The position numbers and the translations under genes are program-made. Positions 22,367 through 26,840 of a stretch of 41,952 nt of DNA are shown one piece after another. The notes beneath the pieces were generated by a model. The model had not been told where the DNA came from, did not search any database, and saw only the letters and a list, made by a program, of their open reading frames with translations. Location: positions 1 to 41,952 of the forward strand of contig JAPORR010000176.1 in the NCBI GenBank assembly GCA_026710105.1. Direction: 5' to 3'. Every line of letters starts with the position of its first letter. The stretch's first letter is position 1. This stretch comes from Alphaproteobacteria bacterium. Lineage in GTDB: Bacteria; Pseudomonadota; Alphaproteobacteria; Bin95.

Positions 22367-22444
22367 GACGTCAGGACTTGATCGGGTGAGATGCGGATTC
22401 CATGATAATGGCCGTTGGAGTGCCCTCCAATCCCGGGGATATCG

Positions 22445-23452
22445 ATGGAACACGAGACCGATGTGGCGATCGTCGGGGCGGGCCCGGTCGGCCTGTTCGC
22501 CGTGTTCGAGCTCGGCATGCTCCAGATGCGTGCGCATGTAGTGGACTCGCTGGAAGCTGTTGGCGGTCAATGCACGGCGCTCTATCCCGAAAAACCCATC
22601 TACGACATACCCGGTTTTCCAAGGGTAGATGCGTGCGACCTTGTCGCGAGGCTGGAGGAGCAGGCGGCGCCGTTTTCGCCCGTCTATCACCTTGACCGGA
22701 AGGTCGAGGCACTCACGCCTCTGGAAGGCGGCTGGCGAGTCGAGATTGCGGAGGGCAGTGCGATTCGCTGCAAGGCAGTCATCGTGGCAGCCGGTGCCGG
22801 CGCCTTTGGCCCGAATCGCCCGCCGCTCGAAGGGCTGGCCGCCTATGAGGGCAGGAGCGTCTTCTACGCTGTGCGTCGGCGCGAGGACTTCCGGGGTAAG
22901 CGGGTGGTGATCGGTGGTGGCGGTGATAGCGCGGTGGACTGGGCGCTTTCACTCTCGGAGCTTGCAGCCTCGGTCACGGTCGTTCATCGGCGTCCCAAAT
23001 TCCGTGCCGCGCCCGAGAGCATCGCTCGCATGAAGGCACTGGAGGCGGATGGAAAGGTCGAGTGCGTCATTCCTTACCATTTGGATGGGCTTGAGGGCGT
23101 GGACGGCCGGTTGGAAGCGGTCTGGGTGAAGACGCTGAAGGGCGAGACGCGCCGGCTGGAAGCGGATGTACTGCTGCCCTTTTACGGGCTGGCCATGAAT
23201 TTGGGGCCCATTGCGAAGTGGGGCCTCGCCCTCGACCGCAATCATATCGCCATCGACCCCTCGACCTCGATGACCGACCGCGACGGCATCTACGCCATCG
23301 GCGACATTGCGACCTACAAGGGTAAGCTCAAGCTGATTCTGACCGGTTTTGCCGAGGCTGCTGCTGCTGCCCACGATATCTATCGGCGCGTCTTTCCGGA
23401 TGAGGTACTCCATTGGGAATACTCGACGACGAAAGGCGTGCCCCAGCCATGA
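22445..23452 (+). CDS. Ferredoxin-NADP+ reductase, thioredoxin-reductase-like
   Basis: A 335-residue flavoprotein with VAIVGAGPVGLFAVFELG for FAD and VVIGGGGDSAVDWALSLSEL for NADPH. GIYAIGDIATYKGKLKL is near the end, and LHWEYSTTKGV forms a C-terminal extension. The CxxC of true thioredoxin reductase is absent. That and the tail match the TrxR-like ferredoxin-NADP reductases (Bacillus YumC, Chlorobium FNR), so it likely moves electrons between NADPH and ferredoxin or flavodoxin. The start is ATG 22445; an in-frame ATG at 22415 is less likely. Confidence 0.9.
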   Translation: MEHETDVAIVGAGPVGLFAVFELGMLQMRAHVVDSLEAVGGQCTALYPEKPIYDIPGFPRVDACDLVARLEEQAAPFSPVYHLDRKVEALTPLEGGWRVEIAEGSAIRCKAVIVAAGAGAFGPNRPPLEGLAAYEGRSVFYAVRRREDFRGKRVVIGGGGDSAVDWALSLSELAASVTVVHRRPKFRAAPESIARMKALEADGKVECVIPYHLDGLEGVDGRLEAVWVKTLKGETRRLEADVLLPFYGLAMNLGPIAKWGLALDRNHIAIDPSTSMTDRDGIYAIGDIATYKGKLKLILTGFAEAAAAAHDIYRRVFPDEVLHWEYSTTKGVPQP

Positions 23453-23525
23453 CTCGCTCGCTTGCGTCATGTTGAAGGGGCGCCAGCTATTGATTTCGAC
23501 CTATACGCTACCGGGGGTGCTGACC

Positions 23526-24362
23526 ATGATCGGCCCGACCGCCCCGATGCGGCCGCTGCTGCTCGACTCGCCCCATAGTGGCACCGACTATCCGGCTGAT
23601 TTCGCCCCGGCTGTAGACCGCGATACGCTGCTCAACGCGGTGGATACGGCGGTGGACGATCTGTTCGGTGACGGACCGAAACTGGGCGCAGCACTGCTGA
23701 AAGCCCATTTCCCGCGTACCTATATCGACCCGAACCGCGCTGCTGACGATATTGACGCCCGTCTTATCGATGGGCGCTGGCCCAGCTTGCTGGCACCGAC
23801 GGAAAAGACACGGCGTGGCATCGGCCTGATCCGGCGTACCATAGGCGAGGACGAGCGGGCGCTTTACGACCGTCGGCTCGGCGTCGGGGAGGTGCAGGCA
23901 CGTATCCGCCGCTATCACGCGCCCTATCACCGTGCTCTCGGAGAGGCGGTAGACCTCTTGGCGGCGCACTTCGGCACAGTTTACCACCTGAATTGCCACT
24001 CCATGAGCTCGCGCAGCCGGCAAGGTGTGTTGCGGCGTCCAGACATCATACTCGGAGACCGCGACGGCACGACCTGTGAGGCGGGATTCACGTCCTACGC
24101 TGCTGAGGTTCTGCGCGGGCTCGGCTACAGGGTGCGGACCAATCATATCTTCAAGGGCGTGGAACTCGTCCGCGCCTTCTCAGACCCGGCTGCCGATCGC
24201 CACAGCCTCCAGATCGAGATCAACAAGGCCCTCTATATCGACGAGGAGACGCGCCGCCCGAGCCCCGCCTATGCCTCCCTGCAAGCGGATCTTGCGCAAT
24301 TAACAGACTGTCTGGCTGCCTACGCCGAAGAACGTGCCCGCGGTAGGACGGGCATGGCCTGA
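23526..24362 (+). CDS. N-formylglutamate amidohydrolase family protein
   Basis: A zinc-hydrolase family that in histidine breakdown releases glutamate from N-formylglutamate. From ATG 23526 the protein has 278 residues. PLLLDSPHSGTDYPADF opens the family, then FPRTYIDPNRAADDID, a Tyr/His segment RRYHAPYHRALGEAV, VYHLNCHSMSS and SLQIEINKALYIDE near the end. The start is uncertain: ATG 23526 has GGGGGTG six bases upstream, while ATG 23469 in the same frame has no clear site but leaves room for the usual N-terminal strand. No hut genes stand nearby, so the substrate is open. Confidence 0.88.
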   Translation: MIGPTAPMRPLLLDSPHSGTDYPADFAPAVDRDTLLNAVDTAVDDLFGDGPKLGAALLKAHFPRTYIDPNRAADDIDARLIDGRWPSLLAPTEKTRRGIGLIRRTIGEDERALYDRRLGVGEVQARIRRYHAPYHRALGEAVDLLAAHFGTVYHLNCHSMSSRSRQGVLRRPDIILGDRDGTTCEAGFTSYAAEVLRGLGYRVRTNHIFKGVELVRAFSDPAADRHSLQIEINKALYIDEETRRPSPAYASLQADLAQLTDCLAAYAEERARGRTGMA

Positions 24363-24464: not shown

Positions 24465-25031
24465 ATGCGAATCCAGGCGAATACCATCCGTCCCGGCAAT
24501 GTCATCGAGCATGATGGAAAACAATGCGTCGTCATCAAGATCGACCTGATCCTGCCCGGCAAGGGCAATGCCTTCATTGCCGTCGAGATGCGCGACCTGA
24601 AGACCGGCGTGAAGACCCAGGAACGCTGGCGTACCGCCGACAGTGTCGAACGGCTAACCACTGAGGAGCGATCTTGCCAGTTCCTCTACGCCGAGGCCGA
24701 TGGCTATACTTTTATGGACAATGAAACCTACGACCAATTTTCGCTCGACGCCGGCACGGTCGGCGCCGGCGCGCCGTTCCTCCAGGACGGGTTGGAGGTC
24801 AAGGTAATGACGGTGGACGGCAACCCGGTCGGCCTCGAGTTGCCGACGCGGATCGTGCTGGAGGTCGTCGAGGCAGAGCCGGTGGTGAAGGGGCAGACGG
24901 CCTCCTCCTCCTACAAGCCGGCCCTGCTGGAGAATGGGGTGAAGGTGATGGTCCCGCCGCATATCAAGGTTGGCGCGCGCATCGTTGTAAACCCGAACGA
25001 CCTCAGTTATGTCGAGCGGGCCAAGGACTGA
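24465..25031 (+). CDS. efp: Elongation factor P
   Basis: Relieves ribosomes stalled on proline runs. The 188-residue protein has the three-domain EF-P layout: RIQANTIRPGNVIEHDGKQC, the modification loop LPGKGNAF with Lys33 at the position that EpmA lysylates in E. coli, and the C-terminal OB fold ending in GARIVVNPNDLSYVERAK. Whether Lys33 is modified here cannot be told; epmA and epmB are not in the window. The start is ATG 24465. The 102 bases before it hold no recognisable regulatory element. Confidence 0.96.
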   Translation: MRIQANTIRPGNVIEHDGKQCVVIKIDLILPGKGNAFIAVEMRDLKTGVKTQERWRTADSVERLTTEERSCQFLYAEADGYTFMDNETYDQFSLDAGTVGAGAPFLQDGLEVKVMTVDGNPVGLELPTRIVLEVVEAEPVVKGQTASSSYKPALLENGVKVMVPPHIKVGARIVVNPNDLSYVERAKD

Positions 25032-25037
25032 CCAGCC

Positions 25038-25856
25038 ATGCGCCGCCCGGCCGAGATCAATGTCATGCTGCGTGCGGCGCATGCGGCAGGGCGTGGGTTG
25101 GCGCGCGATTTCGGCGAGGTGGAGAACCTTCAGGCCTCAGAGACGGGGCCTGGCGAATTCGTGTCGATCGCCGACCGGCAGGCTGGGCGCCGGATCGTTG
25201 AGGAACTCTCTCGCGCGCGGCCACGATACGGTTTCCTGCTTGAGGAAAGCGGGGCAGTCGCGGGCCCCGACACGAGTAATCGCTGGGTCGTCGATCCGCT
25301 TGGCGGGTCGAGTAATTTTCTGCACGGCATCCCGCATTTCTGCTTGTCGATCGCACTTGAACGTGACGGTGAACCGATGGCGGCGCTCGTCTATAACCCG
25401 CTCACTGATGACACTTACTGGGCGGCGCGCGGCGTCGGCGCTTATGTGAACAACCGGCGACTTAGAGTCTCGGCGCGGGCGCGTCTTACCCACTGCATCC
25501 TGGCGGCCGGCGATGAGGCCGGAGCGGATGTCAGCCATCTGCGCCGGCATGCGGCGGCCAAAAGTGCTGGCGCGAGCCTGCGCTGGTTCGGCGCAGTGGC
25601 GCTGGACCTCGCCTGGGTCGCGGACGGGCGTCTCGACGGATGCTGGCATACTGGCATGCGGCGCTGGCACATCGCGGCCGGCGTGCTACTGGTGCGCGAG
25701 GCTGGCGGGGCGGTTTCTGACACCGACGGGTCCGCTAACATGCTGGAAAGCGGCAATATCCTGGCAGCCAATGATCGCCTGCATGGCTCTTTGAGCCAGC
25801 TCATGGAGGCTGCCGACGCGCTGGTTCCGGTTGCGCCGACCGGGCAGGCAGCATAG
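25038..25856 (+). CDS. Inositol monophosphatase-family protein, metal site degenerate
   Basis: A 272-residue IMPase/SuhB-family protein. SIADRQAG (Asp46) and GFLLEESG (Glu69/70) are near-normal, and NFLHGIPHFCLSIALERDG, FGAVALDLAWVADGRLDG and GVLLVREAGGAVSDTDG are typical. The core motif DPLDGTTN, however, reads DPLGGSSN, with the second metal-ligand Asp now Gly89. The motif WDxAAG reads WHIAAG, with the base-activating Asp now His211. Both are single-base changes from GAC (GGC and CAC). The fold seems intact and the frame is open, so this may be a pseudoenzyme, or an enzyme with altered metal use. It follows efp by six bases, where alphaproteobacteria often keep a suhB-like gene. Confidence 0.88.
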   Translation: MRRPAEINVMLRAAHAAGRGLARDFGEVENLQASETGPGEFVSIADRQAGRRIVEELSRARPRYGFLLEESGAVAGPDTSNRWVVDPLGGSSNFLHGIPHFCLSIALERDGEPMAALVYNPLTDDTYWAARGVGAYVNNRRLRVSARARLTHCILAAGDEAGADVSHLRRHAAAKSAGASLRWFGAVALDLAWVADGRLDGCWHTGMRRWHIAAGVLLVREAGGAVSDTDGSANMLESGNILAANDRLHGSLSQLMEAADALVPVAPTGQAA

Positions 25857-25895: not shown

Positions 25896-26840
25896 ATGGC
25901 GCGCTACCGAAGCATTCTACGAGCGGCAGCTGCGTTAGTCCTGTTCCTCGTGGTCGCCTGGGGCGCCGATGCGCAGGACATCCTGATTATTGATCGCGAT
26001 GGGGCGCGCTGGAAGAGTGGTGACAGCGAGGAGCCGTCCATTACGGTCACTTCTTCTGGTATCATCAACGCCTTGCCGCCCACCTCCGGGCCGGAGCCGA
26101 GGACACCGGAACTGGCGGCTGTGCCTTCCTTCGCTGCGGGGCGGCCTGTGGCTGTTTCTGACCCGCAGCTGGTCAAAGCCGCGCTCGCCAAGCCGTCTGA
26201 AGGATCCCGTACGCTGGTTCCATATGTCCGTGCGACCGCCCTGCCGCTACGCCCGCCTGCCAGAGAGACGGATGCGTCGCCGCCGCTGCGGGCATTCCTG
26301 GCGCGTGCCAGGAATACCGCCCCGTCTCGGTCGGCTGCGCGTTCATCTGTGGCACTGCCGACACCGCGGCCGCTCCAGATGCTAATTGTCGAACCCGCTT
26401 CGCCCGCTGACTCGTTGGCGCAGTCTGTCCGGATCGGCTTGCCACCGCCCTCCGCCACGCCTGAAACATTGCGCCGGCGGGGGGCACTTGACATGTCTGG
26501 TGTGCCAGCCTCTGCAATGCCGGTTGTGGTGGACGAGGTGATGACCTTTTTCTACGGCGGTGGCGAAACCGGGCTCAGCCTAGAGGATCGTGCGCGCCTA
26601 GGTGGCATCAACACCAAGGCAGGCGGCAAAACAGGGCCGCGTGTTGAGATCCACGCTTATTCGGGGTCCGCGGAAAACGAGGGTACGGAAGCCCGCCGCA
26701 AAGCCTTGTTGCGTGCCATAGAGGTCCGTCGTCTGCTGATTGCTCGTGGTGTGCCAGGGCCTCGTATCGTGATGAAGGCGGCTGGCATCGGTGAGGACGT
26801 GAGGGCCCGCGTCGATATCATGCTGGTCGAACGCAGTTGA
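25896..26840 (+). CDS. Exported OmpA-like domain protein
   Basis: A 314-residue protein with a signal peptide ending at about residue 26 (ALVLFLVVAWGADA, cut before QD). A long low-complexity Pro/Ala/Ser/Arg-rich linker runs to about residue 205. The C-terminal OmpA-like fold has PRVEIHAYSGSAEN, then ALLRAIEVRRLLIARGVPG, and ends RARVDIML. The RA..V helix Arg is kept, but the Asp of the canonical GHTD motif is replaced, so classical binding to diaminopimelate is doubtful. Its stop lies just before the ExbB-like gene. Together they look like an energised envelope pair. Family function is unknown. Confidence 0.8.
   Translation: MARYRSILRAAAALVLFLVVAWGADAQDILIIDRDGARWKSGDSEEPSITVTSSGIINALPPTSGPEPRTPELAAVPSFAAGRPVAVSDPQLVKAALAKPSEGSRTLVPYVRATALPLRPPARETDASPPLRAFLARARNTAPSRSAARSSVALPTPRPLQMLIVEPASPADSLAQSVRIGLPPPSATPETLRRRGALDMSGVPASAMPVVVDEVMTFFYGGGETGLSLEDRARLGGINTKAGGKTGPRVEIHAYSGSAENEGTEARRKALLRAIEVRRLLIARGVPGPRIVMKAAGIGEDVRARVDIMLVERS

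Follow-up and report, generated by a model that had tools for sequence, protein, structure and literature searches.

SuhB of Escherichia coli (structures 2qfl, 6ib7, and 6tqn) is an active inositol monophosphatase (IMPase) and an rRNA antitermination factor, and its phosphatase activity is dispensable for relieving the defects of suhB mutants (PMC6614801, PMC4807359). Complementation is lost in variants of the protein that no longer bind RNA polymerase, and the contacts of SuhB with NusA-AR2 are made by Lys251 and Leu254 (PMC6614801). The debate on the relevance of the phosphatase to the cellular role of SuhB has so far drawn chiefly on E. coli mutants. Lineages in nature that drop the activity yet keep suhB provide an independent answer, and they can reveal the surfaces that selection still guards. 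Searches of open papers returned no IMPase pseudoenzyme. The closest solved relative of the protein described here is SuhB of Bartonella henselae (3luz, 3lv0; sequence E value, 1e-74; Foldseek E value, 1e-32), and both proteins carry the alphaproteobacterial helix-1 motif RD[FY]GEV. However, 3luz differs in having intact DPLDGTTN and WDMAAG motifs and an Arg at position 183.

The gene of interest lies in a stretch of 41,952 nucleotides of an alphaproteobacterial contig, referred to as the window (Table 1). Its product, of the same family and fold as E. coli SuhB, gave a full-length match to Inositol_P (PF00459) in a Pfam profile search (residues 10 to 256; 178.7 bits; E value, 2e-52; cut-off, 27). 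Both its position after efp and its best match to congener genes place it in the efp-linked alphaproteobacterial SuhB group. The earlier note on this DNA, made from the sequence alone, had described the efp-linked position as conserved, and this was confirmed: the gap to efp is 6 bp, and suhB stands directly 3′ of efp in 87 of the 87 orthologue loci in which efp was found. Against the E. coli-type equivalog NF008027, the protein reached 182.4 bits, below the cut-off of 332, a shortfall that may apply to alphaproteobacterial SuhB generally. An AlphaFold2 model (pLDDT, 91; pTM, 0.90), which tracks the alignment and is no proof of protein stability, had Bartonella SuhB 3luz as its top fold match.

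Table 1. Features of the efp-suhB locus and residues of the window SuhB discussed in the text
Feature	Position in window	Strand	Remark
efp, elongation factor P, fixed upstream neighbor of suhB	24465..25031	+	Pfam EFP_N, EFP, Elong-fact-P_C
SuhB/IMPase orthologue, dismantled metal site 2, predicted pseudoenzyme	25038..25856	+	272 aa
RDFGE motif, helix 1, residues 23 to 27, candidate non-catalytic surface	25104..25118	+	
Codon 36, Lys to Thr	25143..25145	+	Lys invariant in 87 orthologues
Codon 46, Asp retained, human Asp47 equivalent	25173..25175	+	
Codon 69, Glu retained, metal site 1 ligand	25242..25244	+	
Codon 86, Asp retained, bridges both metals	25293..25295	+	
Codon 89, Asp to Gly, metal site 2 ligand	25302..25304	+	E. 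coli Asp87
Codon 91, Thr to Ser, catalytic Thr	25308..25310	+	Human Thr95 equivalent
Codon 183, Arg to Trp	25584..25586	+	Aligned with E. coli Arg184
Codon 204, His across the whole genus, Glu in most orthologues	25647..25649	+	Human Glu213, substrate contact
Codon 211, Asp to His, metal site 2 ligand	25668..25670	+	E. coli Asp212

The two motif changes claimed in the earlier note are present: DPLGGSSN replaces DPLDGTTN (codon 89, GGC), WHIAAG replaces WDxAAG (codon 211, CAC), and the protein thus carries neither of the active-IMPase motifs DPxDGTxN and WDxAAG. Asp occupies both positions without exception in 87 further alphaproteobacterial orthologues and in the seven congeners, whose codons there are GAC or GAT, in agreement with the observation that each change is one base from GAC. 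The genus comprises eight genomes, and suhB is found in the same place in all seven congeners with 80 to 83% identity, next to an efp that was confirmed in each fetched suhB stretch (efp itself is 93 to 98% identical between this genome and the congeners). Plus-strand reading of the motifs in five congeners gave DPLDGTGN and WDIAAG, and the residue table gives both Asp residues in all seven. Therefore, the D89G/D211H loss is confined to this species, which a tree built from seven concatenated genes places deepest in the genus.

By alignment to 2qfl, Gly89, His211, and Trp183 stand where E. coli SuhB has Asp87, Asp212, and Arg184. In the established IMPase mechanism, as in human IMPA1, Asp87 and Asp212 form metal site 2 together with Asp84, and D89G and D211H thus leave one of the two catalytic metals without two of its three ligands. 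Among outgroup sites that are at least 98% conserved, the window SuhB differs at four (K36T, D89G, T91S, and D211H) and the congeners at none; the note had not mentioned K36T, T91S, or R183W, which likewise fall at strongly conserved or almost invariant positions. The replacement E204H is common to the whole genus and is therefore older. Loss of metal site 2, together with T91S and K36T, would very probably make the hydrolysis of inositol or other phosphate monoesters impossible. Metal site 1 could conceivably have been turned to another chemistry, with Glu69 and Asp86 acting with His211 or in some other arrangement on a new substrate or in a one-metal reaction; these two ligands and Asp46 are retained, and a substrate contact was already altered genus-wide by E204H. 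However, Gly89 is unable to act as a metal ligand, and two further residues, Lys36 and Thr91, are altered too.

Sequencing error at these bases, which the note had raised, is unlikely, and an assembly or sequencing artefact in this fragmented draft has a very low probability in our estimate. The genome is known from a single assembly of 246 contigs, yet the gene carries 28 differences at sites where the seven congeners agree, some codons have two changes (codon 92, two or more bases), synonymous divergence is normal, the frame is open, and independent parallel losses occur in the other lineages described below.

Three more PF00459 proteins are encoded in this genome, 30 to 32% identical to the window SuhB and with DPLDGT intact; judging from their sequences, we read them as CysQ-like, HisN-like, and unassigned, respectively. 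The search for a second intact IMPase that the note had proposed therefore does return family members with intact motifs, but all three belong to other subfamilies, and no second SuhB-type copy was found among the PF00459 proteins of this genome. None of the eight genomes in the genus yielded a gene for myo-inositol-1-phosphate synthase (PF07994), and the genus thus seems to lack the textbook substrate route.

The earlier note had left the choice between a pseudoenzyme kept for a non-catalytic role and early decay. That the protein is a pseudoenzyme is supported by the replaced ligands of the same metal, the changes at Thr91 and Lys36, and the lack of a second SuhB; that it is kept is favored for this genome. 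If the gene were decaying, its purpose would have been lost recently in this lineage, and it would now be drifting, with a frame that is open only for want of time. The Pfam score of the efp-linked gene, 178 bits versus 212 to 218 in the congeners, agrees with such a course, as the drop of 34 to 39 bits is confined to this gene and the scores of the three paralogues fall inside the range of their congeners or slightly exceed it. In a two-ratio codon model written for this analysis, which compared the branch to this genome with the other branches, dN/dS was slightly but not significantly raised (0.088 versus a background of 0.054; 2ΔlnL, 3.2), a value that averages the periods before and after the loss. 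As the exact changes occur in one genome only, it is an indirect measure of selection after the loss. On the same branch, the control values were 0.069 to 0.075 (the three paralogues) and 0.009 (efp). Neutrality (omega = 1) was rejected for the window suhB (2ΔlnL, 122); the results for the four-taxon genes g28021 and g29606 were discounted in this test, as pruning had probably produced a two-way root. By our own arithmetic, a mixture of 0.054 and 1 yields 0.088 with about 4% of the branch neutral, which would leave room for some 17 amino-acid changes free of selection. A brief neutral phase of suhB in the recent past of this genome is therefore possible, but by itself it would not account for the clustering of changes in the active site.

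Decay should hit residues at random, yet conserved active-site residues changed on this branch about 10 times more than other conserved ones (four of nine versus three of 70; Fisher P = 0.0025, an indicative value, as the active-site residues were listed from what is known of IMPases but with the motifs already in view). The open reading frame, length, and efp spacing are all intact, and dead forms are maintained in other lineages. The low branch dN/dS and the active-site clustering thus fit poorly with simple decay, which we regard as unlikely but as the main rival reading; no second genome with the exact changes speaks for keeping. Close relatives with intact motifs and relaxed selection, the combination that the note had set against its own reading, were found in half: the relatives are intact, but selection is not clearly relaxed. 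We consider it probable that the window SuhB is a pseudoenzyme retained for a non-catalytic role, as one case of a recurrent alphaproteobacterial trend.

The evidence for this trend came in part from a pattern scan for replaced WD motifs across 385 alphaproteobacterial genomes, which yielded four more SuhB genes without the WD Asp, all adjoining efp. Three other pattern hits (G014, G084, and G024) were dropped because they had no SuhB match. Replacements of D89 by codons not starting with G, and of D211 by codons starting with G, were omitted from the scan patterns, and independent losses are therefore undercounted. At least one of Glu69, Asp86, Asp89, and Asp211 is lacking in 12 of 148 SuhB orthologues (this genome; G011, G012, and G013; all three genomes of family f22; and G021, G030, G047, G273, and G339), a count that is not a frequency, as many orthologues were picked because they resembled the query and some because of a lost motif. 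When the class is represented by one genome per family (46 genomes, G014 to G059), four have losses (G021, G030, G034, and G047). The lineages with a dead SuhB comprise families f22, f9, f18, f19, f23, f35, and f36 and the sister genus g2 of the same family as this genome, and a FastTree tree implies about six to eight independent losses. Some of them are recent, as all four ligands are still present in the sister genomes G272 and G176.

Other losses are old. In family f22, the dead form is present in all three genomes, with four to five catalytic residues lost; the congeners G034 and G165 have D46E, D86S, and D211Q in common, along with replaced Glu69 and Thr91. Between these two, dN is 0.177 and synonymous sites are saturated (pS, 0.81), which indicates that a dead SuhB has long been maintained under strong purifying selection. 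In the sister genus, three of the four genomes have lost ligands (G011, G012, and G013), and dN between G011 and G013 is 0.089 at a dS of 2.4. Both of the latter carry Asp for Glu69 and Glu for Asp211, swaps that, from the residues themselves, might constitute a compensated site that still binds metal and is not dead. These swaps would also suit a changed catalysis in the window protein. However, each dead lineage lost its own combination of residues, Asp86 and Glu69 included, with no common new motif, and we judge a new or one-metal reaction to be very improbable. A 13th case, G574 (D86A, D89E, T91A, and D211N), emerged when 249 genomes across the phylum were scanned; the 3-kb stretch around its suhB showed no efp, and this copy may not be efp-linked, as all other dead orthologues are. 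No dead SuhB was found outside the Alphaproteobacteria in that scan, in which the non-alphaproteobacterial genomes had no positive control. The independent losses in several alphaproteobacterial lineages suggest that the main job of SuhB in these lineages is not enzymatic, and they caution against annotating such genes as inositol monophosphatase.

SuhB was not found in some efp-bearing genomes, which would suit early decay. SuhB is absent beside efp in G009 (the same family; a 93%-complete assembly), G032, and G045, where only weak paralogue-level hits were found elsewhere; the gene can thus be dispensable in genomes that bear efp. In G009, efp is followed by a ribose-5-phosphate isomerase-like open reading frame, and in G045, by a Fic/Doc-like one on the other strand. 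The absence of SuhB from G010 was not counted as gene loss, as efp is missing too and an assembly gap is probable. Early decay would likewise suit the size of this genome, at 3.35 Mb the smallest of its genus (others, 3.4 to 5.0 Mb). Dead SuhB copies tend toward the smaller genomes of their group (families f1, f35, and f36): G011, G012, and G013 have 2.6 to 3.3 Mb versus 4.2 to 4.3 Mb for G008 and G010, G047 has 2.8 Mb versus 3.5 to 3.8 Mb, and G273 has 3.0 Mb versus 3.9 Mb for its congener. Genome reduction may be a driver, relaxing the catalytic function first.

If SuhB is retained as a pseudoenzyme, the question arises of what it does. The fold, gene position, and most conserved non-active-site residues are kept, and the protein would most likely still have a task other than catalysis, probably that of a scaffold or binding protein tied to translation or rRNA transcription. 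The fixed efp linkage points to translation or ribosome making, and NusA with a C-terminal acidic repeat domain (TIGR01954 match) is encoded in this genome and in all congeners. We thus consider a non-catalytic binding function connected with the production of ribosomes or rRNA to be moderately probable. The RNA polymerase and NusA role of E. coli SuhB, which the note had offered as an example, does not hold as stated. Arg184 of the E. coli protein is reportedly part of the dimer core and involved in RNA polymerase sensitivity (Wang and colleagues, 2007), whereas Trp183 aligns with this residue of 2qfl, the one expected of a Nus-type SuhB. This replacement weakens any specific E. coli-like role. 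As the AR2-contacting Lys251 and Leu254 also align with Gly250 and Ser253, it would be unsafe to assume the E. coli contacts here.

The loss of this Arg is not peculiar to the window. By alignment, R183 and D190 correspond to Arg184 and Asp191 of E. coli SuhB, and R183 may contact D190. Both are intact in 126 of the 136 orthologues with all four metal ligands, at least one of them is replaced in all 12 orthologues lacking metal ligands, and G574, found afterwards, fits the pattern with Asn at both positions. R183, D190, and P160 are the conserved non-active-site positions most consistently lost with the metal ligands (six of eight lineages each). That the pair is broken in every dead copy argues against assuming an E. 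coli-type RNA polymerase contact. The pair is already broken in the nearest ligand-intact relatives of three lineages (sister genus, G008; G273, G176; G339, L081), which suggests that the pair is lost first and the active site later. The association of pair and ligands is partly phylogenetic, since long branches lose more of everything; the branch-length-weighted chance that all losses fall on broken-pair branches is about 0.001.

Other positions are guarded in dead copies. R23, D24, F25, and E27 are kept in 12 of 12 dead orthologues, as are N93, F94, R182, G185, and others. The RDFGE motif is absent from E. coli SuhB and is therefore a candidate docking surface specific to the Alphaproteobacteria. 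Tentatively, these observations could be joined into an ordered path within this class: (i) the R183/D190 pair breaks, (ii) the active site becomes dispensable, and (iii) the metal ligands erode, while RDFGE and the efp linkage are kept and the selected function becomes wholly non-catalytic.

The neighborhood of the locus offers two minor observations. Upstream of efp, the two genes at 22415 to 24362 encode a pyridine-nucleotide oxidoreductase and an N-formylglutamate amidohydrolase; they had no match in the congener stretches around efp, which are short on that side, and the upstream neighborhood may differ in this species. Downstream of suhB, an OmpA-like gene (25896 to 26840; weak Pfam match, below the cut-off) is 37 to 60% identical to its congeners over partial stretches versus 80 to 90% for its neighbors and is, by these sequence comparisons, apparently a fast-evolving gene amid conserved ones.
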